From Arthrobacter sp. KBS0703 (GTDB lineage: Bacteria > Actinomycetota > Actinomycetes > Actinomycetales > Micrococcaceae), in NCBI RefSeq assembly GCF_002008315.2, contig NZ_MVDG02000002.1, forward strand, positions 186,001 to 250,000: DNA of 64,000 bases. Direction: 5' to 3'. The number at the start of each line of letters is the position of its first letter. The first letter of the stretch is position 1. Positions 7,956-63,289 of the stretch are shown piece by piece. The notes under the pieces are model-generated. The model was given only the letters and a program-made list of their open reading frames with translations, was not told the origin of the DNA and searched no databases. Made by a program: the position numbers and the translations under genes.

Positions 7956-7983
7956 GACGACGGCGGGACCTCCCGCCGTCGTC
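7956..7983 (+). repeat. Dispersed palindromic repeat, copy A
   Basis: A perfect 13-base inverted repeat (7956-7968 with 7971-7983) around a CC loop, preceded by GGGAACG. It sits between convergent genes and could also act as a bidirectional terminator. It belongs to the nine-copy family described in the findings. Confidence 0.8.
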
Positions 7984-7985
7984 GC

Positions 7986-8903
7986 CTAGCCTTCCGCGGT
8001 GGCCGCCGGGACGGCCGGTGCCGCGCCGGCCTCTGTACCCTCGGCCTCCCCGGAAGCCTCCGGCGGCTCCGGCTTGTAGACCCAGGCCACCAGCACCACC
8101 GAGATGATCATTAGCAGGAACCACGAAACCAGCTTGTCGGGCGAGACCATGTGCCAGCCGTTCAGCTGGTTCGGATAAAGCCACGCCCCTGACCAGGTGG
8201 CGATGTTCTCGGCAATCCAGATGAACAGCGCCACCAGCAGGAACGCCAGGACCAGCGGCATCCGGAACCGGCGGCGGAACACCCGGAAGTGCATCACGCA
8301 CCGGCCGAAGATCACCACGACGGCGGCCAGCAGGACCCAACGGGCGTCGGCGACGTAGTGGTGGGTGAAGAAGTTCGCGTAAATGCCGGCGGCCACGATC
8401 GCCGTGATCCACCGCCGCGGATATGCCGCGAAGCGCAGGTCGAAGAGCCGGTACACGCGCACCATATACGAACCCACGGCCGCGTACATGAAGCCGCTGA
8501 AGAGCGGCACCGCCCCGATCCGCAGGAAACCCTCGGCCTCGTACGTCCACGACCCGACGTCGGTCTTGAACAGCTCCATCACCGTCCCCACCAGGTGGAA
8601 GAGGACAATCACCCTGAGCTCCCGCACGGTTTCCAACCGGGTGGCCACCATCAGGATCTGGATCACGACGGCAGCGAGGGTCAGGAAATCGTTCCGGGCC
8701 AGTGCGGCGGCGTCCGGATACCAGAGCCGCGCCGCGAAGATCACGGCGAGGAGCGCGGCGCCGAAGATGCAGGCCCAGGCCTGCTTGAGGCCGAAGACGG
8801 CGAACTCCATGAGCCGCGCACGGATGCCGCTGGCCGGGGCGTTGTCGAGCAGCCGGTGCGCACGCTCGTCGATGCGGTTCTCTACGGACGTGAAGCTGCG
8901 CAT
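7986..8903 (-). CDS. DUF817-family integral membrane protein
   Basis: About 305 residues from the ATG at 8903. Longer upstream extensions are not supported by sequence character. It has seven to eight hydrophobic segments and the conserved DUF817 blocks FGLKQAWACIFG, LFHLVGTVMELFK and GSWTYEAEGFLRIG, followed by FFTHHYVADARW and WIAENIATWSGAWLYP. The family has no established function. The last 35 residues are a low-complexity Ala/Glu/Pro tail. The neighbours give no hint of a pathway. Confidence 0.85.
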   Translation of the reverse strand: MRSFTSVENRIDERAHRLLDNAPASGIRARLMEFAVFGLKQAWACIFGAALLAVIFAARLWYPDAAALARNDFLTLAAVVIQILMVATRLETVRELRVIVLFHLVGTVMELFKTDVGSWTYEAEGFLRIGAVPLFSGFMYAAVGSYMVRVYRLFDLRFAAYPRRWITAIVAAGIYANFFTHHYVADARWVLLAAVVVIFGRCVMHFRVFRRRFRMPLVLAFLLVALFIWIAENIATWSGAWLYPNQLNGWHMVSPDKLVSWFLLMIISVVLVAWVYKPEPPEASGEAEGTEAGAAPAVPAATAEG

Positions 8904-9052
8904 TGGTACCCCGTTCCCCCGCCACGAGTGGCAATGTGTTTTCCCTGCACCACCGCCGGCGGCCGCTTGGTGCGGCCGACCCGGCGCAATGGCGCGCAAT
9001 CCACGGTAGCCCAAAGCCCGTCCCGAAGGCGGTCAGGGGTGGGAGAGAGGGA

Positions 9053-9079
9053 ACGACGCCGGGACCTCCCGCCGTCGTC
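9053..9079 (+). repeat. Dispersed palindromic repeat, copy B
   Basis: ACGACGCCGGGA pairs with TCCCGCCGTCGT across a CC loop, with one mismatch relative to the family. It lies in the 303-base divergent gap between the DUF817 gene and the MOSC gene, where a terminator role would not fit both flanking genes. Nothing else was recognised in that gap. Confidence 0.65.
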
Positions 9080-9571
9080 TGCTGGAGGGCAATCCCGCAG
9101 CGCCGGCAATTTTGGTCGGTGCGGCGACCGAGAACCACCGGCGGGCAAGGCGAGCGCCGCGAGCCCGGTGGTGTGCCGGCCCCTGCGATGGGGATAGTTT
9201 GGTGGCATGACGGCTAGCTACAGGTACGACGTCGAAGTGCTGCACCTCCTAGTGTCGCCGGAACACGCCTACTTTGGCCGCGCCCGCGAGGGTGCGGCGG
9301 ACGTCCCCACGGCCGATGCCGACCGGGTCCAGCTGGTGGCGGGCAAGGGCATCGTCGGTGACCGGTTCTTCGGCAAGGCCGCGCACATGGATGCTGCCGT
9401 CACCTTGTTCGCGGTTGAGGCGCTCGAAGCCATGGCCGCGGAGCTGGGCGCAGCGCCCTTCGACCCCCTCCTGACCCGGCGCAATGTGGTCCTCAGGGGC
9501 GCCCACCTGGCTCCGCTGATTGGCCAGGACTTCGAGCTGGAATCGCGCGGGAGCATGGTGCGGCTGAAGGC

Positions 9572-9609
9572 CTGTCTCTTATACACATCTAGATGTGTAT
9601 AAGAGACAG
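9572..9609. other. Nextera mate-pair junction adapter (library artefact)
   Basis: Two back-to-back copies of the 19-base Tn5 mosaic end, AGATGTGTATAAGAGACAG and its reverse complement, form a 38-base perfect palindrome. This is the circularisation junction of Nextera mate-pair libraries. It interrupts the MOSC gene. There is no transposase or cargo between the ends. Confidence 0.97.
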
Positions 9610-19489: not shown

Positions 19490-22353
<2,864 letters not shown>

Positions 22354-22394
22354 GAGGAACTCCATAATTCAGGTGGCACAGAGTGCCACGATGA

Positions 22395-22602
22395 TTCGGG
22401 TTCCTCCCCGCTCTGTATTGGACCTGAGAGTTTCCGCGTTGCCTGCTGTTCGCAGGCGCCACTTGCACCGTCGGTGAGCCCGGTTTCCCGGACTGCTTTC
22501 CAGAGTTGCCTTGCCGCGGCGGTACGTGGGCCTGAGAGATTCCTGGGGAGGATTTGCTCCTACGGCGCCTGCTGAACGTACCGGCAGGACTCTCCCGCCG
22601 CA
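22395..22602 (-). promoter_or_regulatory. Tandem glycine riboswitch upstream of gcvP
   Basis: Read on the minus strand, two aptamer cores follow each other. The first has GGGAGAGTCCTG, a long variable stem, GCGCCGTAGGAGCAA and GAATCTCTCAGGCCC. After a short linker containing CCGCGG the second has CAACTCTGGAAAGCAG, CACCGACGGTGCAAGT and GGAAACTCTCAGGTCC. These are the conserved purine-rich and CTCTCAGG segments of both glycine aptamers. It ends about 45 bases before the gcvP start and should switch on the glycine cleavage genes when glycine is high. It has no overlapping gene. Confidence 0.95.
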
Positions 22603-22706
22603 GATCATAAGCTGTGCCACTGGTGGGTGACACGGCTCACACATTATCTGCTGTCCGCGCCGGATGCAAAATCTGCGTCACATGAGGCGTTGTTTTCGCC
22701 GGCAGA

Positions 22707-22735
22707 GGACGACGGCGGGACCTCCCACCGCTGCC
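22707..22735 (+). repeat. Dispersed palindromic repeat, copy C (degenerate)
   Basis: GGACGACGGCGGGACCTCCCaCCGctGCC keeps the left arm and loop of the family but has a damaged right arm. It lies between the riboswitch promoter region and a divergent secreted-protein gene. The rest of 22603-22947 shows no gene. Confidence 0.5.
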
Positions 22736-22947
22736 TCCGACTCGCCGACGTGCGCGTCTTGTAAATGGCTATTGTCACCCAGGCAGGGAGTTAGTATTCT
22801 GCGGCCAGCCGGACATTCGGCCGCATCAGGCGGCGCCCGGAACGGCGCCGCCGTCAGGGGCTATTCCCGTAAATAAAGGCGCCCGTCACCACACTGGCCG
22901 ACAACGTGGAACACAGGGTGCCACGCTTCCATTCAAGGGAGAACCTG

Positions 22948-23400
22948 ATGTTAGGCACCAGAAGCGGCCTCGCCGTCGTCGCTCTTGCCGTTGCCCTCAT
23001 GACCATAGCCGCGCCCGCGCACGCAGTCCCCGCAACGCTCGTGAGCGCGGGGCCGGGAATCCTCGTCGCCGACGGCGCCGCGGTGGATGTTCCCGTCAAA
23101 TTCGTGTGCGACACCGACCCTGCCCTGATCATCGCGGTACCCGTCGTCCAACTCACCCAACGAGTCAGCGACGGACGGATCGCCGGTGGCGGCGGAAACG
23201 ATCAGCTCAGCTGCACCAAGCAGGCCCAGACAGTCACCATCAGGGTGGTTCCAAACCTGATGGCGTTCAACGAAGGCGCCGCCGCTGCTTCGGTGATTCT
23301 GCAAACCTGCAGCGCGCAATTCCAGTGCTCCGCCGTCATTGTCAACACCGAAATAACGCTCGCCAAACCAGCCGGCGCGGGGCTCCCGCCCCAACGATGA
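22948..23400 (+). CDS. Small secreted protein, hypothetical (150 aa)
   Basis: The ATG at 22948 has AAGGGAGAA just upstream. The first 27 residues are a classic Sec signal: TRSGLAVVALAVALM then APAHA with a cleavage site before VPA. The mature part is beta-rich and contains four cysteines (CDTD, SCTK, QTCSAQFQCS), suggesting two disulfides in a small immunoglobulin-like fold. No family was recognised. It is exported and divergent from the glycine block. It is probably a cell-surface or culture-fluid protein. Confidence 0.7.
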   Translation: MLGTRSGLAVVALAVALMTIAAPAHAVPATLVSAGPGILVADGAAVDVPVKFVCDTDPALIIAVPVVQLTQRVSDGRIAGGGGNDQLSCTKQAQTVTIRVVPNLMAFNEGAAAASVILQTCSAQFQCSAVIVNTEITLAKPAGAGLPPQR

Positions 23401-23419
23401 ATATGCCCCAACCCCAGCC

Positions 23420-23989
23420 TTAGGAGCCGGGCATCCCGGCCAGTTCGTCGTGCCGGGCCAGTTCCTCGTGCGGGCCAGCGGATAGTTCCAGCTGCCGGAC
23501 GATTCCGTCCACCAGGGCCGCCGGTTCCTCGAGGATGTCCGCGACTATGTGGGCCTCATCGTCCGCCAGCGGTTCGAGCGTGGCCAGCTGGGAAGCGAGC
23601 AGGCTGCTGGGCATGTACTCGTGCGCCCTGCTGCTCAGCCGGCCGGAAATCGTCGCTGCCTCGCCGGACAGATGGACGAAGACGAGGTCCGGCACGAAGC
23701 TGCGCAACAGGTCGCGGTAGCTGCGCTTGAGCGCCGAGCAGGCGATGATGCGGGAGCCTGCGCCGCCTCCTGGCGTCGCCAGTGCGGCACCGATTTCGGC
23801 GAGCCACGGCGCCCGGTCGTCGTCGTCCAGCGGGATGCCGGCGGCCATCTTTGCCTTGTTGGCGGGCGGATGAAAGTCGTCTCCGTCGGAGAAGGGGACG
23901 CCCAAACGTTCCCCCAGCAGGGCGCCGATGGTCGACTTTCCACAGCCGGACACGCCCATGACAACCAGGGGCGGCAGATTCGTGTTCAT
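23420..23989 (-). CDS. gntK: Gluconokinase
   Basis: 189 residues from ATG 23989, with AAGGAAGAA upstream. It has the P-loop GVSGCGKST near residue 13, then FSDGDDFHPPANKAKMAAGIPL with the substrate-binding DxDxxH region, and RAPWLAEIG and CSALKRSYRDLLR typical of GntK. It phosphorylates gluconate to 6-phosphogluconate with ATP. Next to it lies a damaged L-idonate 5-dehydrogenase, so the locus is a gluconate/idonate pathway. Confidence 0.93.
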   Translation of the reverse strand: MNTNLPPLVVMGVSGCGKSTIGALLGERLGVPFSDGDDFHPPANKAKMAAGIPLDDDDRAPWLAEIGAALATPGGGAGSRIIACSALKRSYRDLLRSFVPDLVFVHLSGEAATISGRLSSRAHEYMPSSLLASQLATLEPLADDEAHIVADILEEPAALVDGIVRQLELSAGPHEELARHDELAGMPGS

Positions 23990-24083
23990 GATGTTCTTCC
24001 TTGAATAGTTCCTGCCGCCCGCGGCGATGCGTGCGGCGGCGATGCGTCCTGGGGCCGTGCGTGCGGCGCCGGGTTCAGCAGCT

Positions 24084-24584
24084 CTATGCAAAGCTCAGCA
24101 GGACTTTGCCGGATTCGGCGGAGTTGCGGGCGACGGTGAAGGCTTCGAGGGCGTCCTGGACCGGGAATTCGTGGGTGATGACGGGTTCGATGTGCAGGGT
24201 GCCGTCGGCGAGGGCGGCGATGACGTCATCGATTTCGTCGTTGAACCGGAAGGAGCCCTTGAGGTCCAGTTCGCGGGTGATGGCCAGCGAGATCAGGACC
24301 GGCTGCGGGCCGGTGGGCAGCAGCCCGACCATCACCACGGTCCCGCCGCGGGCGGCGCCCCAATGGCGGAGGCCAGCCCGTGATGGTTCCCGGAGGACTC
24401 AATCACGACGTCGGCCTCGACGGCGGCAATCGCGTCCGCGTCGCCGGCGGCCAGGACCTCGTCCGCGCCGACCGCGGCGGCGATCTCGAGCGGTTTGGCG
24501 TGCATGTCTCTTATACACATCTAGATGTGTATAAGAGACAGCTTCAGCACCGCGACGGCCATCGCCCCGATGGGCCCGGACCCG
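24084..24584 (-). pseudogene. L-idonate 5-dehydrogenase-like gene: 5' end lost, frameshift, adapter insert
   Basis: The C-terminal half of a zinc-type dehydrogenase is readable: HAKPLEIAAAVGADEVLAAG, then ADVVIESSGNHHGLASAIGA. A one-base slip follows near 24352, then VVMVGLLPTG and SFRFNDEIDDVIAALADGTL to the stop at 24084. To the right, an adapter occupies 24505-24541, and beyond it 24542-24584 still encodes the Rossmann motif GSGPIGAMAVAVLK on the same strand. Further right the sequence switches abruptly to an unrelated plus-strand gene. The missing N-terminal half shows that sequence has been lost in assembly here. The idonate assignment rests on the C-terminus and the gntK neighbour. Confidence 0.75.
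24505..24541. other. Nextera mate-pair junction adapter (library artefact)
   Basis: A back-to-back mosaic-end palindrome of 37 bases, lacking the first C. It separates two pieces of the dehydrogenase and lies 43 bases from a non-adapter chimeric join. Confidence 0.97.
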
Positions 24585-24842
24585 TCGTCCGAGGACTTGC
24601 TCCCCTCGGGTGTGCCCCCTGAGCAGCATCTTGCGGCAATTGGCCGGCTCAAGTCCGAGCTGGCCGCGCTTGAGCAGACAAAGGCAGCGCTTAAGGGAAA
24701 GCGGCTGAACCTCCTGGCCGCGGCACGCCGGCTCGGAGTCCTGGATGACTACGAACTCGCGGCCCTGAGCGGACTGCAGCGCGAGACCATCCGGAAGATG
24801 ACGTGGGGCTTTCAGCCTGATTCAGGGGTCATCCCGGCGTAG
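24570..24842 (+). CDS. Small coiled-coil/HTH-like hypothetical protein, 5' end uncertain
   Basis: The convincing part is about 77 residues from a GTG at 24612. It has a charged helix, then ALEQTKAALKGKRLNLLAAA, then a helix-turn-helix-like RRLGVLDDYELAALSGLQRE ending in TIRKMTWG. The upstream ATG at 24570 lies within bases that belong to the dehydrogenase on the other strand, so the true N-terminus is probably missing. It could be a small DNA-binding protein, but no family was recognised. It is convergent with adk. Confidence 0.5.
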   Translation: MGPDPSSEDLLPSGVPPEQHLAAIGRLKSELAALEQTKAALKGKRLNLLAAARRLGVLDDYELAALSGLQRETIRKMTWGFQPDSGVIPA

Positions 24843-24857
24843 CAGTCGTACGGCGGG

Positions 24858-24893
24858 AACGGACGACGGCGGGACCTCCCGCCGTCGTCCGTT
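24858..24893 (+). repeat. Dispersed palindromic repeat, copy D (best copy)
   Basis: A perfect 17-base stem (24858-24874 with 24877-24893) around CC. It is followed by TTGCGTTTAGCTCC, which resembles the conserved 3' flank of other copies. It lies between convergent genes and would also work as a terminator. Confidence 0.85.
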
Positions 24894-24936
24894 TGCGTTT
24901 AGCTCCTGGCCACACACGGTTTCCCGTGGTGCAGGA

Positions 24937-25524
24937 TCACCGCCTGCCGGCGAGGGGAGCCGTGGCGATGGCGTCCAGCACCCTGTTGGTGACTTCATCG
25001 ATGCCGCCGGCGCCGTCGACCCGGGTCAGCGCACCGCGCTCGGCGTACTTGGCCACAACAGCCTCGGTCTGCTCGTGGTACAGGTCCAGCCGGTGCCGGA
25101 TGACGGCTTCGTTGTCGTCGCTGCGCCCGGTGTCCTTGGCGCGGCCCAGGAGGCGGGTCACCAGCTCCTCGTCATCGGCGGTCAGCTGCAGTACGACGTC
25201 GAGCTGTTGCCCGCCTTGGGCCAGGGCTTCGTCCAGGTAGTCGACCTGGCAGGCCGTGCGCGGGTAGCCGTCCAGCAGGAAGCCGTTCTCGACGTCGTCC
25301 TCGCTGAGGCGGCTGCGCACCATCTCGTTCGTGACGCTGTCGGGGACGAAGTCACCGGCGTCCATGTATTTCCTGGCTTCGATGCCAAGAGGCGTTCCGC
25401 CCTTCACATGGGCGCGGAAGATGTCGCCCGTGGAGATCGCTACGACGCCGAGGCGCTCCGAAATGCGCTCCGCCTGCGTCCCTTTTCCGGAACCGGGCGG
25501 CCCGATAATCAACATTCTTGTCAT
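24937..25524 (-). CDS. adk: Adenylate kinase (short form, stand-alone copy)
   Basis: 195 residues with P-loop GPPGSGKGTQ, STGDIFRAHVKGGTPLG, the signature FLLDGYPRTACQVDYLD and a short LID (RAKDTGRSDDNEAVI) without zinc cysteines. It catalyses ATP + AMP to 2 ADP. The housekeeping adk normally sits between secY and map with ribosomal genes. This copy has no such neighbours and is probably a second, accessory adenylate kinase or related nucleotide kinase. Confidence 0.85.
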   Translation of the reverse strand: MTRMLIIGPPGSGKGTQAERISERLGVVAISTGDIFRAHVKGGTPLGIEARKYMDAGDFVPDSVTNEMVRSRLSEDDVENGFLLDGYPRTACQVDYLDEALAQGGQQLDVVLQLTADDEELVTRLLGRAKDTGRSDDNEAVIRHRLDLYHEQTEAVVAKYAERGALTRVDGAGGIDEVTNRVLDAIATAPLAGRR

Positions 25525-25709
25525 TCGAGTAACCCTTCGTTGTGCCGCTACTGAAAGCGCGCTGCCGTCTCCAGCCGGGCCCTGGAAGAGCCCGGGCCTG
25601 TTTCCGAGTGCCGGCCAGCCCCATGCTAGGGCGTCAAAGGTTGCGACCAGGATGCATGCGGCGGCATTTGACGGCGGGACGCGGGCCGGAATCAGGCCGG
25701 CTCGAGGTG

Positions 25710-25820
25710 TCAGGCCTGGTCAGTCGGCATGATCCACAGCTCGCCGATGGAGGCACGCCGGGGCCGCGTGACCATGTAGGCAACGCCGTCAGCGACGTCC
25801 TCCGGTGCGAGGACCTTTGT
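25710..25820 (-). pseudogene. C-terminal remnant of a short-chain dehydrogenase
   Basis: About 35 codons read KVLAPEDVADGVAYMVTRPR and then a tail ending in ELWIMPTDQA before a stop at 25710. This is the typical last segment of clavaldehyde-type SDR enzymes. An in-frame TAG precedes it, so no start is possible. It directly follows an intact SDR stop codon. The rest of the 304-base gap between adk and the SDR shows no gene. Confidence 0.6.
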
Positions 25821-25828
25821 CTACTGCG

Positions 25829-26683
25829 TCAGGCGTCCTCGTGCGCGAGGTTGCTCGACAGTTCGCGGTGGGCGTCGGCCTGCTCCTTGAGAGCGGCGGC
25901 CCGGGTTTCGAATACTCCGACGGCGTCTGCGCCGGCGGCGAAGCGCAGCGGCGGCTCATCCAGCTCGGCCAGCTGAATCAGCGCGTCGGCGAGCTTGGCC
26001 GGGTCGCCGCCCTGCTGCCCGTCCATGCTTTGCCAGGCGGCCACTGTCTGCGCGGTGCGCTCGGCGTAGTCCCCGATGGTGGATTCGGCGTAGCTGGTGG
26101 ATTCCGGGGTGAGCAGCTCAGTGCGGAAGAACCCGGGTTCCACGATCATGGTGCGGATGCCGAACGGCGCGACCTCGGCGGCCAGGGATTCCGCCCAGCC
26201 CTCGACGCCGAACTTCGACGCGGCGTAGGCGCTGAGGAACTCCCCGCCCGCGATGCCGGCGGTCGAGGAGATCGTGACCACCAGGCCGGAGCGCTGGGCC
26301 CGGAGCACCGGCAGGGCAGCGCGGGTGACGTTCATGGGCCCGAACATGGTGGTTTCGATCTGCGCCCGGAAGTCCGCAGGGGTGATTTCCTCGAAGAACC
26401 CGGCGTAGAAGTTGCCGGCGTTGTTCACGAGCACGTCGATCCGGCCGAACCGCTCGACGGCGGCCTGGATGGCGGCCGCCGCGTTGGCGGGGTCGGTGAC
26501 GTCGAGCTTCACGGCCAGCAGGTTCTCGTTTTCGCCCACGGCCTGGGTGACCTTTTCCGGGTTGCGGCCGGTGGCGACCACCGCGTGGCCGGCGGCAAGG
26601 GCCGCCTTGGCGATGTCCACGCCCATGCCGCGGCCGGCGCCGGTGATGAACCAGACCTTCTTGCTTTTGTTCTGCTTAGTCAT
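25829..26683 (-). CDS. Short-chain dehydrogenase/reductase
   Basis: 284 residues from ATG 26683. It has the cofactor motif TGAGRGMGVDIA, DVTD, the NNAG motif in DVLVNNAGNFYAG, serine in TISSTAG and the catalytic YAASK. The basic residue after the first strand (ATGRNPEK) suggests NADPH. It belongs to the group of bacterial SDRs reducing aldehydes or ketones, substrate unknown. It overlaps the MmyB-type regulator upstream by eight bases, so the two are cotranscribed and the regulator probably controls it. Confidence 0.9.
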   Translation of the reverse strand: MTKQNKSKKVWFITGAGRGMGVDIAKAALAAGHAVVATGRNPEKVTQAVGENENLLAVKLDVTDPANAAAAIQAAVERFGRIDVLVNNAGNFYAGFFEEITPADFRAQIETTMFGPMNVTRAALPVLRAQRSGLVVTISSTAGIAGGEFLSAYAASKFGVEGWAESLAAEVAPFGIRTMIVEPGFFRTELLTPESTSYAESTIGDYAERTAQTVAAWQSMDGQQGGDPAKLADALIQLAELDEPPLRFAAGADAVGVFETRAAALKEQADAHRELSSNLAHEDA

Positions 26684-27656
26684 GTGATGGTTCTGTCTTT
26701 CCCTTGGGTGTTCCGGGCTGCGCCTGGACGCGTGCCTCGGGGACGGTGGATCCGCCGGCAGGATCGCCGGCGGCGGTTGGTTCGGGAGGCGATGCCGCCC
26801 AGCTGGCGAGGAACGCCAGCGCGTTTTCGGACGCGGAGCCGGGCTCAGCGGTGAAGGTGAACAGGGTTTGCCCTTCATCGCCGGGCAGATGGAGCGTCTC
26901 GAACTGGAGGGACAAATCCCCCGCCACCGGATGGTGGAAGCGCTTGGTCCCAGTGGTGTGGATCCGCACGTCGTGCCCGGCCCACAAAGAGGCGAACGGC
27001 CCGCTGCGCGTGGTCAGCTCCCCGACCAGCTCGTTCAGCTCCCGGCCATGGGGGTTCCGCCCCGCCTCAAAGCGCAGCATCGCGACCGCAGTCGCGGCGA
27101 CCGCCGGCCAATCCGGATAAAAGTCACCGGCGCGAGGATCGAGGAAGATGTAACGCGCCTGGTTCGGCAGTCGGGCTGGCGTGGCCTGCCCCGGAGGCGC
27201 GGCCGAGTCGAGTACCTCCGCGTACAGCGCCCGGGCCAGCAGGTTGGCGGCCAGCACGTCGGAACGGCCGTTCTGCACCATGGCGACCACTACGGTCATG
27301 CCGTCCAGGAGTTGAAGCACGCCGGGACGGACCCGCTGCTGCGGTGGCCGGCGCGGTGCCCGGCGCGTCGGTGTGTTGGCCGTCCGCGCCAGGTCCATCA
27401 GGTGTGTCCGCTCGGCCTCGTCCAGCTGGAGCGCAGAAGCCACCGCCTCAAGGACCGAGTCTGAAACGCCGCTCAGGCTGCCGCGTTCCAGCCGCGTGTA
27501 GTAATCCGCGCTCACCCCGGCGAGCTGCGCCACTTCCTCCCGGCGCAGTCCCGGCACGCGGCGCAGCTCCCCGTAGCTGGAGATCCCCGCCTGCTCCGGG
27601 CTGATCTTCGCACGGCGCGAAATCAGGAACTCACGGATTTCTTCTTTTCTGTCCAC
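26676..27656 (-). CDS. MmyB-like helix-turn-helix transcriptional regulator
   Basis: About 326 residues. GTG starts are possible at 27656, 27662 or 27665; the first conserved residues (KEEIREFLISRRAKISPEQAG) follow immediately. The N-terminal Cro/C1-type HTH reads VPGLRREEVAQLAGVSADYY, then TRLERGSLSGVS. The C-terminal two-thirds is the MmyB ligand-binding domain (VVAMVQNGRSDVLAANLLARAL, FLDPRAGDFYPDW). The family senses small hydrophobic ligands and usually represses an adjacent reductase. It is coupled to the SDR. The C-terminal tail is a low-complexity Pro/Gly/Thr extension. Confidence 0.88.
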   Translation of the reverse strand: MDRKEEIREFLISRRAKISPEQAGISSYGELRRVPGLRREEVAQLAGVSADYYTRLERGSLSGVSDSVLEAVASALQLDEAERTHLMDLARTANTPTRRAPRRPPQQRVRPGVLQLLDGMTVVVAMVQNGRSDVLAANLLARALYAEVLDSAAPPGQATPARLPNQARYIFLDPRAGDFYPDWPAVAATAVAMLRFEAGRNPHGRELNELVGELTTRSGPFASLWAGHDVRIHTTGTKRFHHPVAGDLSLQFETLHLPGDEGQTLFTFTAEPGSASENALAFLASWAASPPEPTAAGDPAGGSTVPEARVQAQPGTPKGKTEPSHD

Positions 27657-27750
27657 ATCCACCACGCTACGGAGCCGGAGCGGCCGGTGGCAGTGTCTGT
27701 CAGACACCCCCAAATCCGCCGGAACGCCGGCCAGGGCAGCACGCCGGGAC

Positions 27751-27783
27751 CGGACGACGGCGGCAACCTCCCGCCGTCGTCCG
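27751..27783 (+). repeat. Dispersed palindromic repeat, copy E
   Basis: CGGACGACGGCGG (27751-27763) pairs with CCGCCGTCGTCCG (27771-27783). It is followed by the conserved flank GCGTTGCGCGCCGCTCCCC. It lies between divergent regulator genes, so it is not a simple terminator. Confidence 0.8.
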
Positions 27784-27907
27784 CTGGCGTTGCGCGCCGC
27801 TCCCCTAAAGTCCCGGCCGAAAACCCTAATGTGCAAAGATTGAAGGTAATAGGGAAAATGCCTGACGGCGGATTCCCGCCGAGCCCTATCAGCAGGGAGG
27901 CCCCGGA

Positions 27908-28684
27908 ATGCAAAGTGCGGCAATCTCCACTCGCGCCTTGGATCTTCTGTTGCTGCTGCGCGGCAGTGAGCCGGAAGGGCTCGGCCGCGCAGACCAGGTG
28001 TCTTACCAGATCGAAACAGCGATCCTGATGGGAATCCTGACCGAGGGCGACAGGCTGCCCACGGAGTCTGCGCTCGCTGCGGAACTTGGCATTTCGCCCA
28101 TAACCCTTCGCCAGTCCCTTGCCGCCCTCCGGACCAAGGGCCTGATCGAAACCAGCCGGGGCCGCAGCGGCGGAAGCGTCATCCGCCGCCAGATCGAACT
28201 TACGGATACGCAGTTGCGGCACAAGCTCCGGGACACCAGCACCGAAGCCCTCAGGGACCTTGGTGACCTGGGGGCTGCCATCGCGTCAATGTCTGCCCGG
28301 CTTGCCGCCCGCCGTGCAGATCCGCAAAACGTTGAGCACCTGGAGGACCTGGTCAAGCGCCACCGGGAAGCCACCGATGAACGTGCCCGGCGCAGGATGG
28401 ACAGCCGCTTTCACGTGGCCATCAGCATCGCCTCGCAGTCCAGCAGGCTCACGTCGGCGGCACTTCAACTTGAGGCCGAGCTGATGACCCTTTGGTGGGG
28501 CGATCCCGGCCAGCCCGGCGGCGAGGGCGTCCTGGTGGAACAGCACCTGGCGATCGTCGATGCGATCAGGGAGCGGGACGCCGACGCCGCGGCCCGGGCC
28601 GCTGAGGATCACAGCCGCAGTGAGACAGAATATTTGATTGAGCAGCATCTGAGGTTGACGATGCGGCCCGAAGAAGGTGCGTGA
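27908..28684 (+). CDS. GntR/FadR-family transcriptional regulator
   Basis: 258 residues, with GGGAGG seven bases before ATG 27908. The N-terminal winged helix reads LTEGDRLPTESALAAELGIS, PITLRQSLAALRTKGLIE and TSRGRSGGSVI. The C-terminal all-helical FCD domain follows, with SRFHVAIS and EHLAIVDAIRERDADAAARAA. FCD regulators bind organic acids or sugar acids and usually repress neighbouring catabolic genes. It heads the cluster that runs to the aldehyde dehydrogenase and is coupled to the next gene. Confidence 0.9.
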   Translation: MQSAAISTRALDLLLLLRGSEPEGLGRADQVSYQIETAILMGILTEGDRLPTESALAAELGISPITLRQSLAALRTKGLIETSRGRSGGSVIRRQIELTDTQLRHKLRDTSTEALRDLGDLGAAIASMSARLAARRADPQNVEHLEDLVKRHREATDERARRRMDSRFHVAISIASQSSRLTSAALQLEAELMTLWWGDPGQPGGEGVLVEQHLAIVDAIRERDADAAARAAEDHSRSETEYLIEQHLRLTMRPEEGA

Positions 28685-28685
28685 C

Positions 28686-29405
28686 GTGGAGCCCATGATG
28701 GAAGCCCTTGAGCGGACCGCCGGCACCCTGTCTTCCAGCCTCAACGGCGTCTTCGCCGACCTGGAAAAGATCGCCGCAGCGGTCACTGCGGCCGCAGAGG
28801 CCGCGCCGGGAGTCACCCGCCGCAGCGAGTACCTGTTCCTGAAGCAGGAGCTGGCCGACATCATCGAGCTGCATTCCGACCTCATCATCGGTGCAGGGAT
28901 CGCCTATGCCCCGGGGAGCCTCCCCGAGGCGCCGCATTGGCTGGAATGGTGGCGGGCTCAGCCCAAAGGCGGCCCCCGCTTCGTCACGCACGACCTCAAT
29001 CCGGACTCGCTGAACTACTACGACTACACGGGCCGGGAGTGGTTCACCCTTCCCTCCTCGACCGGGCGGCCGGTGGCAGTCGGTCCCTACGTCGACTTCG
29101 GCGGCATCAATGTCAACATCATCACCCTCTGCGTTCCCGCCCACACCGCACAGGGCATCCATGTCCTCGGCTGCGACCTACCCCTCGCCAAGCTTGAGGG
29201 AGTGTTCCTCCGGGCGCTCCGGCTCCGCGAGCCCGCCGTCGTCCTGCTGGGGCCCAATGGCCGGGTGATTGCCTCCAACAACGCGCGCATCGCCACGGGC
29301 ACGCTGCTCCTGGAAGAAGACCTGAAGCGGGCCGAGACCTCGCTTGACGTCTCCCCGGGCAGCCGCACCCGCCTGCCCTGGAAGCTCATCAGCCTCCAGC
29401 CGTAA
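28686..29405 (+). CDS. Cache-domain-like sensory protein
   Basis: The GTG at 28686 has AAGAAGG eight bases upstream and begins one base after the GntR stop; an ATG at 28695 is also possible. About 239 residues. After helical N-terminal residues, WLEWWRAQPKGGPRFVTHDL, YYDYTGREWFTLP, GPYVDFGGINVNIITLCVP and PNGRVIASNNARI resemble a dCache fold that binds small ligands. It has no membrane segment or signal peptide, unusual for cache proteins, which normally sense outside the cell. Its coupling to a GntR regulator suggests a cytosolic ligand-binding partner for transcription control (inferred). Confidence 0.7.
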   Translation: MEPMMEALERTAGTLSSSLNGVFADLEKIAAAVTAAAEAAPGVTRRSEYLFLKQELADIIELHSDLIIGAGIAYAPGSLPEAPHWLEWWRAQPKGGPRFVTHDLNPDSLNYYDYTGREWFTLPSSTGRPVAVGPYVDFGGINVNIITLCVPAHTAQGIHVLGCDLPLAKLEGVFLRALRLREPAVVLLGPNGRVIASNNARIATGTLLLEEDLKRAETSLDVSPGSRTRLPWKLISLQP

Positions 29406-29537
29406 GGCGTTTGCCCCGCACGCAGCCGGGCAGCGTCGTCGTCATCACACCCCGGAATCCGGGTTGCGCTGCGCCCAAAAGCAACCGATGGCTGCCCTTC
29501 AGAATTCTCCTGTTCCCTAAAAGCTATTGCATTAATC

Positions 29538-29551
29538 ATACAATGATGTAT
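29538..29551. promoter_or_regulatory. Inverted repeat, candidate GntR operator
   Basis: ATACA (29538-29542) and TGTAT (29547-29551) flank ATGA in an AT-rich patch within an otherwise GC-rich 353-base gap before the MFS gene. Size and spacing fit FCD/GntR operators. The rest of the gap (29406-29758) shows no gene. Confidence 0.45.
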
Positions 29552-35061: not shown

Positions 35062-35097
35062 AACGGACGACGGCGGGACATCCCGCCGTCGTCCGTT
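35062..35097 (+). repeat. Dispersed palindromic repeat, copy F
   Basis: A perfect 17-base stem (35062-35078 with 35081-35097) around CA. It is followed by CTTTGCGTGCCGCTCCCCC, the best-preserved 3' flank. It lies 26 bases after the aldehyde dehydrogenase stop. Confidence 0.85.
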
Positions 35098-37352: not shown

Positions 37353-37385
37353 ACGGACGACGGCGGGCCGTTCCGCCGCCGTCCG
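37353..37385 (+). repeat. Dispersed palindromic repeat, copy G
   Basis: ACGGACGACGGCGG (37353-37366) pairs imperfectly with CCGCCGCCGTCCG (37373-37385). It is followed by the conserved flank TGCGTCGGGTGCCGCTCCCC. It lies in a divergent gap between the hydrolase and the VOC gene. Confidence 0.75.
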
Positions 37386-37439
37386 CATGCGTCGGGTGCC
37401 GCTCCCCCGCAGCGCCGGCCGGCCGCCGTCGGACGCGTC

Positions 37440-49782: not shown

Positions 49783-49818
49783 AGCGGACGAGGGCGGGTC
49801 CTCCCGCCGTCGTCCGCT
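49783..49818 (+). repeat. Dispersed palindromic repeat, copy H
   Basis: AGCGGACGAGGGCGGG pairs with CCCGCCGTCGTCCGCT with one mismatch around TCCT. It is followed by TGCGTTGTTGGCCGTCCC, similar to the flank of other copies. It sits downstream of the VWA gene stop. Confidence 0.75.
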
Positions 49819-50630
49819 TGCGTTGTTGGCCGTCCCGGCCGGCTAGGAAGCCCAGTCGGCGTCGTCGTAGGGGCGGCCGCGGAAATGAGCGCGGAGGTAC
49901 TCCCCCACCACGGCAGCCCCCAGGTCCCCGGTCTCGGGCGCAACCACCCGCCCGCCGATCCGGCGAACCATGCGCTGGACGAACCGTTCCAGGCCGGGGT
50001 CGTCGCCGAGCCGGAAGAACGTTGCCTGCGTGCCGGCACGCCCAAGGCGGTCCAGCTCGGTGACCGTGACGCGGATGGTCTCCGGGTCCGGCGGCCAGCA
50101 GAACCACGATTCGCCGTCGGCCAGCAGGTGCGCGGTGGGTTCGCCGTCGGTCACCACAAGGAGGACGGGCTGCATTGACGGGTGCTGCCGGAAGAACCGG
50201 CTGGCCAGCAGCAGACCGTGATGCAGGTTGGTTCCCTGCTCCCGCAGTGCCGGCAGGGCGGTGAGTTCGCCGATGTCCATGGACTGCGCGTAGCGGCCGA
50301 AGGTGATCAGCTGGAGCCGGTCCCCGCGGAACCGGGTGGAGACGAGGTGGTGCAGGGCCAGCGCGGTGCGTTTCATGGGCACCCAGCGCCCTTCGGCCGC
50401 CATCGAGAACGACACGTCCACGAGCAGGACGACGGCGGCCTGCGTGCGCGCCTCGGTCTCGGTCACCTCGATGTCACCCACGGCGAGGCGCAGTCCGCGG
50501 CCCGGATCACCGCCGTCGGCAATGGTGCGGCGGATCGCGTTGGTCATGGTGCGGGTGACGTCCCACGGCTCGGCGTCCCCGAACTCCCACTGGCGGCTGG
50601 AGCCGGTCTGATCGCCGGCCGCTCCGGCAA

Positions 50631-50751: not shown

Positions 50752-50789
50752 CTGTCTCTTATACACATCTAGATGTGTATAAGAGACAG
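50752..50789. other. Nextera mate-pair junction adapter (library artefact)
   Basis: The full 38-base back-to-back mosaic-end palindrome, the same as at 9572, inside the VWA gene and 102 bases from the single mosaic end. Confidence 0.97.
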
Positions 50790-51904
50790 CTCCTGCATTG
50801 CCCGCTCGATCTCCGCGAGGGTGCGGGCCGTCACGGCGGCATTCTGTCCGAGCTGGCGGGCGAGGGCGTCTAGGTCCAGGTCGTCGAGCCGCGACCCGTC
50901 ATAGGACTGGGACAGCTGTTCGGCCAGCTCGTCGAGTTCGGCGATGTCCTGGAGCACGCCGGTGCCGTCACCGAGCCCGAGTCCCTCCTGGCCCTCGAAG
51001 CGTTCGGAGCCGGACCAGTCCTCGCCGGGGCGGAGGGAGCGCAGGCTGGCGTCGAGTTGATCCAACTGGGCCATGAGCTCGGGCGAGCCGAACGCCTGGG
51101 CGGACAGCCGCATCAGCTCATCGCGCTGCTCCGGGGACATGGATTGCAGGAGCCGCTGTGCCGCGGCCGCACGCTGGGCGAGCGCGTCCACCAGCTCCTC
51201 GACTGATTGTGGATTCTCCGGAAAGAAGCGGCCGTGCCGGGCCATGAACTCCTGGAAGTCCGCGTCGGTGTCTTCGCCGCGCCGGTGTTTGCCGAGGAGC
51301 TCGTTGAGGTCGCGCAGCATCTCGTTCACGGCCGCGCGGTCCTCATCCGTAGCGTTCTCGAGCGCTTCCTTCATGCCGGCGAACCGCTGGTCAAGGATTT
51401 CGCGGCCGAGCAGATCCTTGATCCGCTCGTAGGCTTCGCGTGCGGTGCTCGACTGCCAGTCATAGGAGGCGAGTTCGTTGACCGCTGCCGCCGTGGACCG
51501 CGGCAGGTTCTGCAGCTGCAACTCCCGGAAGGCGCGGTCGTTGTTGTCCATCATGGCGTCGCGGGCCAGCTGCTTGCGCTCCTCCAGCACCGCAGTATCG
51601 AGCAGCTTCTGGACTTCGCTGAGCGTGCCGTCCAGCCGGTGGCGGCCCAGCAGTTCACTCCGCCGCTGTTGAACGCGCCCGGCGAGGTCGTCGAGCCCTT
51701 CCCTGTTGCGGCCGCCGCGCCGCACGAACTCCTGCAGGGCATGCCGCGGCGAGTAGCCTGCCATGACGTCCTCGGCGACAGCCTCAAGCGCCTCGGCCAG
51801 GTCAACCGGCGGGGCGAGCGGATCGGGCCCTCCCGTGTACCGGCCGTATCTGGAGGACTGGTGATGAATGCCCATGAAGCCTCCTGTGCCTAGCCTTGAG
51901 CTAC

Positions 51905-59576: not shown

Positions 59577-61001
59577 CTACGCCGCGATGAATAGTGCCCA
59601 GTCAGGCAAGGGATCCACCGGAAATGGTGGCCCGGTCCCTCCGGGACCGGATGTACTGGCAAGTACGTCCGGCCAGTCGGGCGGTTCCCAGTCCTGTTGT
59701 TCGCTGGGATAGGAGCGTCCCGCGGGAGAGATCCAGCTGGGCGGCTGGTCCCGGGTGGCGTCAACCGGCCTCCATGCTGTGGTGTGTTTGAGTCGGTGGT
59801 GCCTCCGGCATGGCTGGCCCAGGTTGGTGATGCCGGTGCCGCCTCCCTCGGACCAGGCCAGCAGATGGTCTGCTTCATTATCCAAGGAATGGTTGTTGCA
59901 GCCGGGAAAGGGGCACCGGCCGTCCCGGAGCCGCAACCAATGGCGCATCGCCTTCGGAACCCGGTAGCTGGTGCGTCCGATCTCCAGCGGCGCTCCGCTG
60001 CGCGGATCGGTGAGCACGCGCAGGAATGATCCGGCACCATCCCCGACAAGCCGGCGGGCCATGCTCGGCGGAATGGGACCATACCCATCCAGCGTGGCCG
60101 GTTCCGTGCCGGCACCCAGCAGCGACAACACCGGAACGGTCACCAGGACCTGCGCCTTGGGTGACGGCGTTCCTTCAGCCACCCCCGCCAGCAGCCAGTC
60201 AGCGGCGACGTCCGCACGGAGCTGGGTCAGCGTTCTGGATTCGGCGGGCCCCTGCAGGGCACGCGCGGCTTCCGTGGCACGGGACCAAACAGACGCGGCC
60301 ACGTCCGCAGTCACATAGGCCGAGAGCCAGGCCATGCCGTCCCGGTCCGGGGCATATTCCAGCCGACGGTCCTGCACGCCCTTGCTGTGGCGTGCTTCGA
60401 TGCTTACAGGATGATGCCGCTCGCGCCAGCTCCGCGCTTTGGCCCGGAACCTGCCCGGCACCAGCTCTGCCGCCGGGCAGCCACGCGCAGCAAAGGGAGC
60501 TTCGGGGTCCAGGAAATGGGCCTCCAAGGCAGCAGCAGCGGCGGGGTCCAGACCGGATGTTTCATCACACATCACCCGTGCGTGCTGCCACGAAATGCTC
60601 CCTGACTGCAGCGCTGACAGCGTCAGGGGCAACGCGGTGGTCAGGGTGGCTGACTCCGCCAACAAGGCCGCCGCCGATCTTTCACTCACGGTCAGGGCAC
60701 AGGCCACCTCTGCTATCACCGCCATTGCCTGGGCGCTGCGCTCCTGCGGGGAAGCGGCCGGAGCGGCCATGGCTGCGGAAGCGTGGGCGTATCCGGCGGC
60801 GAAGTGCACTTTCAGCGCGGCCATGCCGGCTTCCACCCGGGCAGCCGCAGCCAGCCCGTCCAGGCAAGCGTCCGCTTCGTCCTGAAGGGGGTCAGCACCG
60901 GTCGAGGCGACCTTCCCGGCCCCGCTACCGGCAAGTGCAGCCATGGCAGCGAGAGAGGCCTCCATGGCCTCCAACGTCTCCGCAACTGCTCTGCCTTCCA
61001 T
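59577..61001 (-). CDS. DUF222/HNH endonuclease-motif protein (13E12-repeat type)
   Basis: About 474 residues from ATG 61001; a GTG at 61007 is possible. The long helical DUF222 region (AALLAESATLTTALPLTLSA, then MCDETSGLDPAAAAALEAHF) precedes a C-terminal HNH nuclease motif: RDGRCPFPGCNNHSLDNEAD, then HLLAWSEGGGTGITNLGQPC and RRHHRLKH, with zinc-type Cys/His. These proteins are present in many copies in Arthrobacter and Mycobacterium genomes and behave like selfish or domesticated nucleases; biological role unclear. Confidence 0.92.
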   Translation of the reverse strand: MEGRAVAETLEAMEASLAAMAALAGSGAGKVASTGADPLQDEADACLDGLAAAARVEAGMAALKVHFAAGYAHASAAMAAPAASPQERSAQAMAVIAEVACALTVSERSAAALLAESATLTTALPLTLSALQSGSISWQHARVMCDETSGLDPAAAAALEAHFLDPEAPFAARGCPAAELVPGRFRAKARSWRERHHPVSIEARHSKGVQDRRLEYAPDRDGMAWLSAYVTADVAASVWSRATEAARALQGPAESRTLTQLRADVAADWLLAGVAEGTPSPKAQVLVTVPVLSLLGAGTEPATLDGYGPIPPSMARRLVGDGAGSFLRVLTDPRSGAPLEIGRTSYRVPKAMRHWLRLRDGRCPFPGCNNHSLDNEADHLLAWSEGGGTGITNLGQPCRRHHRLKHTTAWRPVDATRDQPPSWISPAGRSYPSEQQDWEPPDWPDVLASTSGPGGTGPPFPVDPLPDWALFIAA

Positions 61002-61055
61002 ACCCACAGCATGGCAGCAGGCACTGACAATTTAGCCGGCATCAGAGTTGCAATG

Positions 61056-61940
61056 TCAGCCTTCCAAAATCTGCCTGATCCCGAACTCTCCCACGGTGAA
61101 CATCCGCGGATTGTCATCGGAGTTGCTCAGCATGGCGGTGGACAAGACTAGAGCCCATCCCCGGGCCCTTATCCAGGTGTCCCTCTCCACTGCGGGGCCA
61201 TAGGCGCCCATGAAGCGGTGGCGGGCGCCGCCGTCGAACATCAGCCACCCCACCGCAAGATCAACGGCCGGGTCCCCTGCCCCAACGTCGCCGAAATCGA
61301 TGACGCCGGCCAACCCGCCGTCGTCCGCCAGCAGGATATTGCCCGGGTGAAGGTCCCCGTGGAGCATCATCGCCGGACCATTCCAGGGTTTAGCGGCACA
61401 GGTCTGCGCCCACACCGCCCGCAGCGCTGCTGCCTGCGGGTAGCGTTCGCGGTCCCCGAGCCGTTCCGCCACCGTAGCGGCACGGTCCATCAGCGGCACG
61501 CCGCGGAAAGGATTCACCGGGACGCCGGTTTCGGCAGGCACGTGGAGGGACCGGAGGAAAAGGGCCAGGCCTTCAGCGGCCGGCCCGCGGTGTGCCGGGG
61601 CGACTTCGGCCGCTGCGGCTCCGGGTACCCACCGCACGATGCTCCACGGCCAAGGAAAGTGCGACGTCGGCCGGCCGGCATGGACGGGCACAGGAACCGC
61701 AACCGGGGAACGGCGGGCGATGTCGGGAAGGTAGTGCTGTTCATGCAGTATCAGCGAAACGGCCTTCGGCCTGCGCGGCAGCCTCACGGCCAGGTCGTCG
61801 CCGAGCCGGAAGGTCGCGTTGTCCCAGCCATTCGCCACCCGCGCCAAAGGACGATCGCCGAGGTCGGGCCGCTGGTCCCGGACTAGGCGATGGACGACGG
61901 TGTCGCTCACCTCCACTGTAGCTGGTGGCATTCCCGCCAT
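61056..61940 (-). CDS. Aminoglycoside-phosphotransferase family protein
   Basis: 294 residues. The N-terminal lobe reads WDNATFRLGDDLAVRLPRRP, then HEQHYLPDIA. The catalytic loop is MMLHGDLHPGNILLADDGGL and the magnesium motif is AGVIDFGDVGAGDPAVDLAV. The family includes aminoglycoside kinases and many small-molecule kinases. Acquired resistance cannot be concluded from sequence alone. It is divergent from the PD-(D/E)XK gene. Confidence 0.9.
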   Translation of the reverse strand: MAGMPPATVEVSDTVVHRLVRDQRPDLGDRPLARVANGWDNATFRLGDDLAVRLPRRPKAVSLILHEQHYLPDIARRSPVAVPVPVHAGRPTSHFPWPWSIVRWVPGAAAAEVAPAHRGPAAEGLALFLRSLHVPAETGVPVNPFRGVPLMDRAATVAERLGDRERYPQAAALRAVWAQTCAAKPWNGPAMMLHGDLHPGNILLADDGGLAGVIDFGDVGAGDPAVDLAVGWLMFDGGARHRFMGAYGPAVERDTWIRARGWALVLSTAMLSNSDDNPRMFTVGEFGIRQILEG

Positions 61941-62109
61941 TCAGAGATCCGCCTTACCCGTTTCTGCGATGAGTCCGGTCCTTTCCTTGTCCGAATATAG
62001 TTCAGATCGCCGAGCTGAGCCGCGGTGGCGGGCGTGGGGACGGTGGCAGCATCAATTTGGCTTGTCGCTGCGCTACGGTTGGCAGCACCATCAATTCTTA
62101 GGGGGGCAA

Positions 62110-63204
62110 ATGGAGTTTGCAGAAAAACTCTCAGCTTTGGCAGCAAAGGTGCGCCAACAGCGAGGTGTGATTCAAACCGAAGAGGCAACAAAGAATGCCT
62201 TCGTCATGCCATTCATTTCCACAATCCTGGGCTATGACGTCTTCAATCCGCTGGAAGTCGTTCCAGAGTTCATCGCGGACGTAGGCCTCAAGAAGGGCGA
62301 GAAGATCGACTACGCCATCGTCAAGCACGGCGAGGTGCAGATCCTGATTGAATGCAAAAAGTCCACTGAGCCAGTGAAAATCGAGCATGCATCCCAGCTT
62401 TTCCGGTACTTTGCCGTGACCAACGCCAGGATCGCAATTCTCACCAACGGCGAGGTGTACCAGTTCTTCACTGACCTCGATGCGCCAAACCGCATGGACG
62501 CCAAGCCGTTCCTGGTGCTGGATTTGACCGATATCGACGAGTCTCTGATACCGGAACTGCAAAAACTTTCCAAGGACGTTTTTGATCTCGACTCGATCAT
62601 CAGCGCCGCCGGTGAATTGAAATACATTGGCGAACTCAAAAGGACACTGGCTGCACAGTTCAAGGAGCCGGAGGACGAGTGGGTCAAGTTCCTGACCGGT
62701 CGCGTGTATCCGGGCCCCTACACGCAGAAAGTACGGGAGCAGTTCACGGCGTTGGTAACCAAGGCGTCCAAGCAGTTCCTGAATGACCAGGTTAACGAGC
62801 GCCTGAAGAAAGCGCTGGGTGCTCCGAGTTTCCCGCAGAATGAGGACGCAACCGTGGCCGCCAGTGTCACCAGTGCACCTGTGGCTGAAGCAGACCTGGC
62901 CGAGGCCGACGGTTTGGAAACAACGCTCGAGGAAATCGAGGGATACCAGATCGTGCGGGCCATCGTCTGCAGCGAGGTGAAACCGGCTCGTGTGGTGCAG
63001 AGGGATGCCAAGTCCTATTTTGCGGTGCTGCTGGATGACAACAACCGCAAGCCGATCGCGCGCCTGCACTTCAACCGCAGTCATCAGAAATACATCGGAA
63101 TATTCGACGACAACAAAGAAGAGACTCGCGTGCCCATTAGCTCGTTGGAAGAGATCTACGAGCACACGGAAGCACTCCGCGCGAGCGTAAAGAGCTACCT
63201 GTGA
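62110..63204 (+). CDS. Orphan HsdR-N/PD-(D/E)XK nuclease-like protein
   Basis: 364 residues from ATG 62110, after AGGGGGGC. The N-terminal domain has TEEATKNAFVMPFISTILGY, EFIADVGLKKGEKIDYAIVK and VQILIECKKSTEPVKIEHAS. This gives the Glu, Asp and Glu-x-Lys set of PD-(D/E)XK nucleases, as in type I restriction HsdR N-termini. The C-terminal part (YQIVRAIVCSEVKPARVVQR, HFNRSHQKYIGIFDDNKEET) is a beta-rich domain. No HsdM/HsdS or helicase gene is nearby. It looks poorer in GC than its neighbours, suggesting recent transfer. A phage- or defence-related role is inferred. Confidence 0.8.
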   Translation: MEFAEKLSALAAKVRQQRGVIQTEEATKNAFVMPFISTILGYDVFNPLEVVPEFIADVGLKKGEKIDYAIVKHGEVQILIECKKSTEPVKIEHASQLFRYFAVTNARIAILTNGEVYQFFTDLDAPNRMDAKPFLVLDLTDIDESLIPELQKLSKDVFDLDSIISAAGELKYIGELKRTLAAQFKEPEDEWVKFLTGRVYPGPYTQKVREQFTALVTKASKQFLNDQVNERLKKALGAPSFPQNEDATVAASVTSAPVAEADLAEADGLETTLEEIEGYQIVRAIVCSEVKPARVVQRDAKSYFAVLLDDNNRKPIARLHFNRSHQKYIGIFDDNKEETRVPISSLEEIYEHTEALRASVKSYL

Positions 63205-63256
63205 ACGCCGAAACTGACGGGCTGGTCCACGGCCACTGATTTCGCAGGCAGGACAA

Positions 63257-63289
63257 GCGGACGACGGCGGACCTCCCGCCGTCGTCCGC
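63257..63289 (+). repeat. Dispersed palindromic repeat, copy I
   Basis: GCGGACGACGGCGG (63257-63270) pairs perfectly with CCGCCGTCGTCCGC (63276-63289) around ACCTC. It is followed by CTGCGTCGG. It lies between convergent genes. Confidence 0.8.

Follow-up and report, generated by a model that had tools for sequence, protein, structure and literature searches.

We analyzed a 64,000-nucleotide stretch of the Arthrobacter sp. KBS0703 genome (hereafter the window; positions 186001-250000 of contig C2, NZ_MVDG02000002.1, in the 4.86-Mb, 37-contig draft G000), in which an earlier note, made from the sequence alone, had described nine copies of a palindromic intergenic repeat. The repeat unit is a 30-bp palindrome, GGACGACGGCGG-loop-CCGCCGTCGTCC, and in Arthrobacter-group soil bacteria it marks a fast-changing stretch of the chromosome that ends many of its genes with a near-identical hairpin, while the neighbouring stretches use unrelated hairpins. 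The repeat is probably a transcript-end hairpin, usually a bidirectional U-poor terminator, which is common to many genes of one zone and whose copies have probably spread through local duplications and the exchange of cassettes, with some constraint on sequence. Its sequence, its position past stop codons, the way in which copies crowd together at a set distance from dnaA and the zone's low synteny were observed directly; termination and the spread of copies are inferred.

The sequence of a terminator stem is normally unconstrained. By contrast, one stem is common here to many genes of one region, and to the same region in relatives. If this reading is true, the hairpin would provide a ready-made tag for tracing the entry and movement of genes in a chromosomal turnover zone, and would raise the testable question of whether newly arrived genes establish more easily with a common terminator.

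One stem shared within a chromosomal zone

Intergenic hairpins were picked by structure alone, and we then measured how far their arms differ from the 24-base core. In the zones of five genomes, whose limits were set post hoc with the copies already known, 61 of 102 strong hairpins lay within two mismatches of the core. The flanking DNA of two genomes (C2, 0-118 and 270-347 kb; G020, the 180 kb preceding and the 220 kb following its zone) contained no such hairpin among 76, and six of these came within five mismatches. Random GC-rich perfect hairpins (n = 178) were never closer to the core than five mismatches.

Of 37 genomes of the genus, our own included, 30 contain a pattern with perfect arms (GGACGACGGCGG-N3-8-CCGCCGTCGTCC), with 0-13 copies per genome; the 22 further genomes from the order contain none. 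KBS0703 carries 12 of these (11 on C2 and one on C1), and a relaxed scan of C2 revealed 21 copies at 111-267 kb, the two near 111 kb being doubtful members. The exact 30-mer matched 102 stretches in the genome collection, and the 80 that were listed all came from Arthrobacter, Pseudarthrobacter or Micrococcaceae. Viral contigs searched with a pattern having two free loop bases gave no matches, and a phage origin was rejected on this result.

Distances were measured leftward of dnaA, with dnaA placed on the plus strand. Perfect-arm copies were located at 0.61-0.73 Mb in G020 (11 of 13), 0.60-0.65 Mb in both G006 (3 of 5) and G026 (5 of 8), 0.56-0.63 Mb in G029 (5 of 6), 0.62-0.68 Mb in G035 (5 of 7), 0.61-0.67 Mb in G001 (3 of 5) and 0.66-0.72 Mb in G016 (4 of 4). 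Two drafts gave approximate values of ~0.62-0.68 Mb (G011, 5 of 8) and ~0.61-0.65 Mb (G021, 3 of 4), bringing the total for these nine genomes to 44 of 60 copies; drafts of many contigs were left unplaced. In Arthrobacter sp. Hiyo4 (G030), all 13 copies with strictly readable loops (defined below) lay at 0.41-0.60 Mb. The copies of ten relatives therefore crowd into one zone of ~40-200 kb, 0.4-0.73 Mb from dnaA and on the same side, with G023 as an exception (none of three copies in range, one at 0.87 Mb). All 13 strict-loop copies of G020 fell within 114 kb, for which a uniform spread gives a bound of 6e-19, computed post hoc. The earlier suggestion of a replication-oriented element, if taken as genome-wide, is at odds with this crowding, as the copies are not strewn along the replichores. 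In our own genome dnaA is on C1, and C2 was oriented via its synteny to G020.

Two other locations were considered and rejected. No convincing dif-like site was found on C2 and the zone lies 0.4-0.73 Mb from dnaA, not opposite to it, which excluded the terminus; a plasmid was excluded by best plasmid matches covering at most 5% of a 14-kb query and by the collinearity of C2 with a chromosome to the left and right of the zone. The dnaA gene of Hiyo4 (G030:C1:39269-40565) is matched in two parts that lie in different open frames, perhaps owing to a sequencing frameshift.

Position at gene ends

Genes were called with a purpose-written, simple codon-usage caller and no standard program, and small open reading frames (ORFs) flanking hairpins are possibly wrong. 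Of 102 zone copies in eight genomes, our own among them, 98 were classified (the four dropped lay within genes or at edges, and the window copies at 9051 and 22707 were too decayed to be counted). Convergent gaps held 41, tandem gaps 47 and divergent gaps 10, compared with 50, 240 and 118 of the 408 other gaps of at least 50 bp in the same zones (Fisher's test, convergent excess, P = 2.6e-10; divergent deficit, P = 8e-5). A gene end faced 88 of the 98 copies, and 76 started within 60 bp of the facing stop codon (median 22 bp). For the exact 30-mers in named genomes, 79 of 83 copies were used (four dropped) and comprised 43 convergent, 26 tandem with and seven tandem against the loop strand, and three divergent copies, compared with 41, 96, 73 and 91 of the other gaps, respectively. 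These counts, above all the 76 copies close to a facing stop and the convergent share of 41/98 versus 50/408, speak against the previous statement that the repeats are "not simply terminators", although four of the nine window copies lie in divergent gaps. With most copies ~20 bp past a stop codon and often between convergent genes, they look, on sequence grounds, like bidirectional transcript-end hairpins.

The hairpins share with canonical terminators a stable, GC-rich stem shortly past the stop codon, and they have no U run; the T fraction in the 10 nt past the stem was 0.36 and 0.31 on the two sides, compared with ~0.17 expected at 65.8% GC. The accessible part of PMC12288462 describes U-less, "I-shaped" terminators in mycobacteria, consisting of a GC-rich hairpin at most ~50 bp past the stop without poly-U, and the Arthrobacter hairpins agree with this definition in their composition, their nearness to the stop and the absence of a poly-U tail. 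They differ in sharing one stem sequence and in being confined to a single zone, neither of which is described in that part of the source. If the hairpins are terminators, they would by analogy belong to this U-poor kind; the titles cited in the same part of PMC12288462 conflict over whether a U-tract is required.

Loop orientation

Orientation was read from the loop, either strictly (ACCT/ACTT versus AGGT/AAGT) or loosely (more C than G). Strict reading of the eight zones gave 32 plus and 8 minus copies, with 58 of 98 unreadable, and convergent gaps alone gave 18 versus 3; loose reading of five zones gave 35 plus, 23 minus and 15 ties, a far weaker bias. On C2 at 118-270 kb, eight strict loops were plus and four minus, and an orientation flip within C2 was rejected since its left part is mixed, not flipped. 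The earlier note had all nine window copies pointing the same way. This is borne out for most of them by a plus-strand C-rich loop and a right-hand GYTTGCGTT, but the copies at 35065 (ACAT) and 37355 (CCGT) are ambiguous. Gene direction leaves the bias among readable loops unexplained, though the loose reading of five zones reduces it to 35:23. On C2 as a whole a one-way orientation is not universal. The simplest cause of the bias is direct copying within one region.

Orientation and location also bear on an alternative in which the palindrome acts at the DNA level as a chromosome-organising or replication-oriented site, bound by a protein that marks a domain left of oriC, with its 3'-end place reflecting available intergenic space. 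The position that ten relatives share, ~0.4-0.73 Mb to the left of dnaA, and the nearly fixed inner core are compatible with such a site, but the median of 22 bp to facing stops, the scarcity in divergent gaps and the presence of 0-13 perfect-arm copies per genome are not readily so. The 18:3 ratio of readable loops in convergent gaps likewise has to be set beside the loose 35:23, and the four copies on the mirror side of dnaA, which are reversed as this alternative would have it, belong to one orthologous moved block and represent one event, not four. Moreover, unpaired arms, counted with five words, are about twofold commoner in the C2 zone for two of these and not in G020, and the paired changes seen in the outer stem point to a hairpin. 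We consider a DNA-level site quite unlikely.

Folding and covariation

Six window copies were folded as plus-strand RNA, and three of them reached z-scores of -6.8 to -7.9. The 73 zone copies of five genomes have the foot consensus AGC-GGAC...GTCC-GCT. We further followed one gene across genomes, a 350-aa gene without a Pfam match (L060:12868-13920, minus strand) that a protein search found in 46 of 81 genus genomes. Among its best 30 loci, the hairpin was present 11-17 nt past the stop in 26, absent from three and masked in one; the gene was selected since G030, G021, G011 and several named loci had the hairpin, and excluding these three genomes leaves 23 of 27. Ten of 23 pairs had changed on both sides among the 26 loci, and the covariation score (0.129) exceeded all 500 shuffles and all slid versions (maximum 0.094). 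The variation was mostly in the outer stem, the inner core being nearly invariant.

Synteny of the zone and movement of a block

The regions on either side of the zone are mostly collinear between KBS0703 and G020 (C2 1-85 and 298-335 kb with G020 823-913 and 1161-1211 kb), and 20-kb windows of G020 at 820-900 kb were covered at 0.77-0.84. The hairpin zone itself is patchy and reordered, with a cover of 0.07-0.69 at G020 980-1120 kb. Low cover starts ahead of the hairpins (0.11, 0 and 0 at 920-980 kb) and persists past them (0.01 and 0.06 at 1120-1160 kb), and the hairpins therefore sit inside a longer variable stretch. We also found a 6.2-kb block (C2 151298-157563) that belongs to the left zone in KBS0703 and G020; in G006, G029, G026 and G035 it is inverted and found to the right of dnaA, at 0.66-0.73 Mb. 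In these four genomes a hairpin is ~40 bp from the block end (G029 locus C1:1760029-1765988); at that end of the block the closest hairpin lies 0.5 kb away in C2 and 1.3 kb away in G020, and the association of block and hairpin is therefore inexact.

Such movements raise the alternative that the hairpin is a recombination seam, at which 30-45 bp of repeated identity lets cassettes swap in an integron-like manner by homologous recombination. Family hairpins lay at 88 of 725 alignment ends in both genomes, a count biased by the shared hairpin itself, which extends an alignment to its own edge; and between G029 and G035 or G026 an additional ~0.85 kb ends at the point where the alignment picks up again, the first base of the hairpin. 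Synteny breaks were more frequent at gaps with the hairpin (tandem, 0.81 versus 0.69 without and 0.54 with other hairpins; divergent, 0.87 versus 0.70 and 0.50), but convergent gaps, where the hairpin is commonest, broke equally without it (0.90 with, n = 220; 0.92 without, n = 39; 0.81 with other hairpins, n = 16). The genome pairs in the break and alignment-end counts are non-independent events, and C2 contains no tyrosine recombinase match. A special recombination site, which early counts had strongly favoured, was dropped after this fairer break comparison erased most of the effect: with no convergent excess and a modest tandem and divergent excess, we do not propose that the hairpin is a recombination site, and a seam is very unlikely.

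Under the transcript-end reading, the RNA copy would fold into a stem of ~12-17 bp that may halt RNA polymerase, shield the 3' end against exonucleases, or both, and would do so for both genes where these converge. Copies would multiply through local duplication, and gene cassettes, each with its own 3' end, would be swapped between the equivalent zones of relatives. Duplication and cassette exchange would account for the sequence that the copies share, for the readable loops being in direct orientation and for the relics in divergent gaps, which would persist after the loss of the gene once served. A broader scenario, which we regard as speculative and rather unlikely, is that a fixed compartment left of oriC serves as a genus-wide gene-exchange zone, where cassettes pass between species, mostly from one zone to another, each bearing the shared transcript-end hairpin; this would insulate newcomers from their neighbours and provide a short recombination identity, and would thus label genes that came in through the compartment.

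Several observations weigh against the transcript-end reading. No T run follows the stem, and a terminator scan of window 22001-40000 selected none of five family copies as classical. Four of the nine window copies (9051, 22707, 27752 and 37355) lie in divergent gaps, and the other three folded copies have z-scores of -2.8, -2.7 and -1.1, weak relative to shuffles. Inner pairs 4-12 are kept in 69-73 of the 73 zone copies, which were picked by core likeness, so that their conservation is partly built in; core changes among them were paired on both sides in 14 cases, G-U in six and unpaired, the majority, in 27. The covariation is modest, with 28 and 25 of 500 shuffles matching two of the measures, and a slide by -2 gave 24 cells changed on both sides, the same as the true structure. 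The poorly syntenic stretch (G020 ~913-1147 kb; C2 ~85-298 kb) exceeds the hairpin zone (991-1105 and 120-267 kb, respectively), and convergent gaps break equally with and without the hairpin, as given above. In our own genome, the zone would lie ~0.5-0.7 Mb from dnaA on the assumption that C2 joins the end of C1.

Comparison with known repeat systems

Repetitive extragenic palindromic (REP) sequences of the GTAG and CGTC families are, according to the portion of PMC3733652 available, extragenic palindromes of 20-40 bp, mostly downstream of genes and between convergent or co-directional ORFs. The Arthrobacter hairpin is similarly a small, repeated extragenic palindrome located mostly 3' of genes, as expected of a REP or REPIN, and differs from the families treated there in being low-copy, clustered in one zone and without a REP-associated tyrosine transposase (RAYT) found. 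The high genome-wide copy number of REPs and REPINs is absent: KBS0703 has 11 of its 12 perfect-arm copies on one contig and G020 all 13 in 114 kb. REPs of these families carry an unpaired GTAG or CGTC tag at one end; in the Arthrobacter hairpin CGTC is seen within the arm (see the foot consensus) and not as an unpaired tag. No RAYT-type (Y1_Tnp) gene was detected in our own genome or in 11 repeat-carrying relatives, by a search that matches five of 14 control genomes; the suggestion of a REP-like element with a RAYT was rejected on this result from 12 genomes.

The same search bears on the alternative of a mobile hairpin, similar to REPs or miniature inverted-repeat transposable elements, that inserts preferentially at existing gene ends with the help of a trans-acting enzyme. 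Near-identical 30-mers at non-orthologous sites within one genome would fit such an element, but it would have to act without a RAYT in any of the 12 genomes and without chromosome-wide spread, and no transposase or integrase family was found among the Pfam matches of the window (48 of 65 called genes and one further ORF). We judge it unlikely.

DNA uptake signals are another case in which one sequence builds many hairpins. The unpaired 12-mer arm occurred 4.6 times per 100 kb in the C2 zone and 2.0 times outside it (2.1 and 2.2 in G020), and the many single, unpaired copies genome-wide that characterize uptake sequences were not seen, since unpaired arms are few in C2 and G020; the idea was rejected for this reason. 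Uptake signals generally number ~1,000 or more per genome and lie mostly outside terminators (Kingsford 2007, PMC1852404, in its accessible part). Like the uptake-signal terminators of Neisseria and Pasteurellaceae in that part of the source, the Arthrobacter repeat builds many operon-end hairpins from one shared sequence; unlike them, its unpaired arms are few and its hairpins are confined to one zone.

No description of this hairpin family was found in the open literature, subscription journals being outside the search. The accessible section of the RepRanger study (PMC12306157) gives palindrome counts for Arthrobacter livingstonensis, and the unnamed predictions of that study may include the family.

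Integron attC arrays consist of palindromic sites, mostly in one orientation, between variable genes, and the hairpins resemble them in these respects. They differ in having kilobase spacing, genes on both strands, a near-fixed symmetric stem and no integrase match on C2. A cassette array was rejected on the last point, as no integrase lies beside the array and all 12 Phage_integrase matches are on C1.

The window copies and their flanks

The 20-mer of the earlier note, with up to three mismatches, had 13 matches on both strands compared with 0.02 expected from shuffles. All places but one are covered by these matches, and the remaining copy (27752, with a 7-nt loop) was seen separately. A recognisable copy is thus present at all nine places (corrected starts 7955, 9051, 22707, 24861, 27752, 35065, 37355, 49786 and 63259), but that at 22707 is only half a hairpin. 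Arm mismatches occur in copies 7955, 9051, 37355 and 49786. The described occurrence between convergent, tandem and divergent genes was recovered in the gene calls, with three, two and four copies, respectively.

All copies are given on the plus strand. The three called convergent are 7955..7984 (loop GACCTC, one arm mismatch), between a small ORF at 7692-7916 (+) and a DUF817 gene at 7986-8903 (-); 24861..24890 (perfect arms, loop GACCTC), with an adenylate kinase-like gene on the right; and 49786..49815 (one arm mismatch), 27 bp past the stop codon of gene 49843-50547 on the minus strand. To the left of these three copies the called genes are doubtful (ORFs of 74, 90 and 38 aa, respectively); the gene ends on the right are certain. 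The tandem copies are 35065..35094 (loop GACATC), 29 bp past the stop of an aldehyde dehydrogenase gene, and 63259..63287 (loop ACCTC), 54 bp past the stop of gene 62167-63204. The divergent gaps contain 9051..9080 (degenerate arms, mate-pair adapters ~0.5 kb rightward), 22707..22736 (left arm and loop intact, right arm CCACCGCTGCCT decayed), 27752..27782 (loop CAACCTC) and 37355..37384 (loop GCCGTT, a weak fold with z = -1.08).

The conserved right flank and longer unit claimed previously were partly recovered. A short right stretch, GCTTGCGTTT, recurs broadly, but the remainder is the 3'-end relic of one gene: the flank GCCGCTCCCCTACAGCGCCGACCAGCCGCC codes on the opposite strand for ...DGGWSAL-stop of a short-chain dehydrogenase (SDR) and its 3' untranslated region. 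The clearest relic (...ASDGGWSAL-stop plus untranslated region, 37385..37430, minus strand) follows copy 37355 and scored 56, compared with 28 for the best of 146 shuffled flanks; those right of 27752 and beside 35065 are marginal (30 each). Scores above the best shuffle were found at nine of 73 zone copies, five of them on C2 and three barely above (31, 30 and 30). The query was derived from the flanks of C2 266973, G020 and G030, whose own scores are high by construction; the gene persists in shortened form at C2 266973, is frameshifted in G020 and is reduced to its last codons in G030 at 3330230. As the relic is clear at 37355, at least one divergent-gap copy appears to be what remains of a gene end since lost.

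Contig C2 retains at least 21 residual mate-pair adapters, presumably Nextera-type junction adapters, and its fine order is possibly wrong locally, including near copy 9051. They are embedded at window 9572, 9681, 24505 and 50752 and at 17 further C2 places, and truncate ORFs at 9207-9602 (ending CLLYTSRCV) and 50769-51875 (ending SLIHI).

The half copy at 22707 is directly upstream of a tandem glycine riboswitch (22403-22607, minus strand) and gcvP (glycine dehydrogenase), near serine, glycine and one-carbon genes; an Rfam scan of the window at gathering scores found nothing beyond this riboswitch pair. A DUF222 protein is encoded at 59577-60965, near the right window end. Finally, MLTR_LBD-type (MmyB-like) regulators are encoded at 26676-27665 and 39678-40610, each near a short-chain dehydrogenase gene, and the two neighbourhoods are perhaps a duplicated module.

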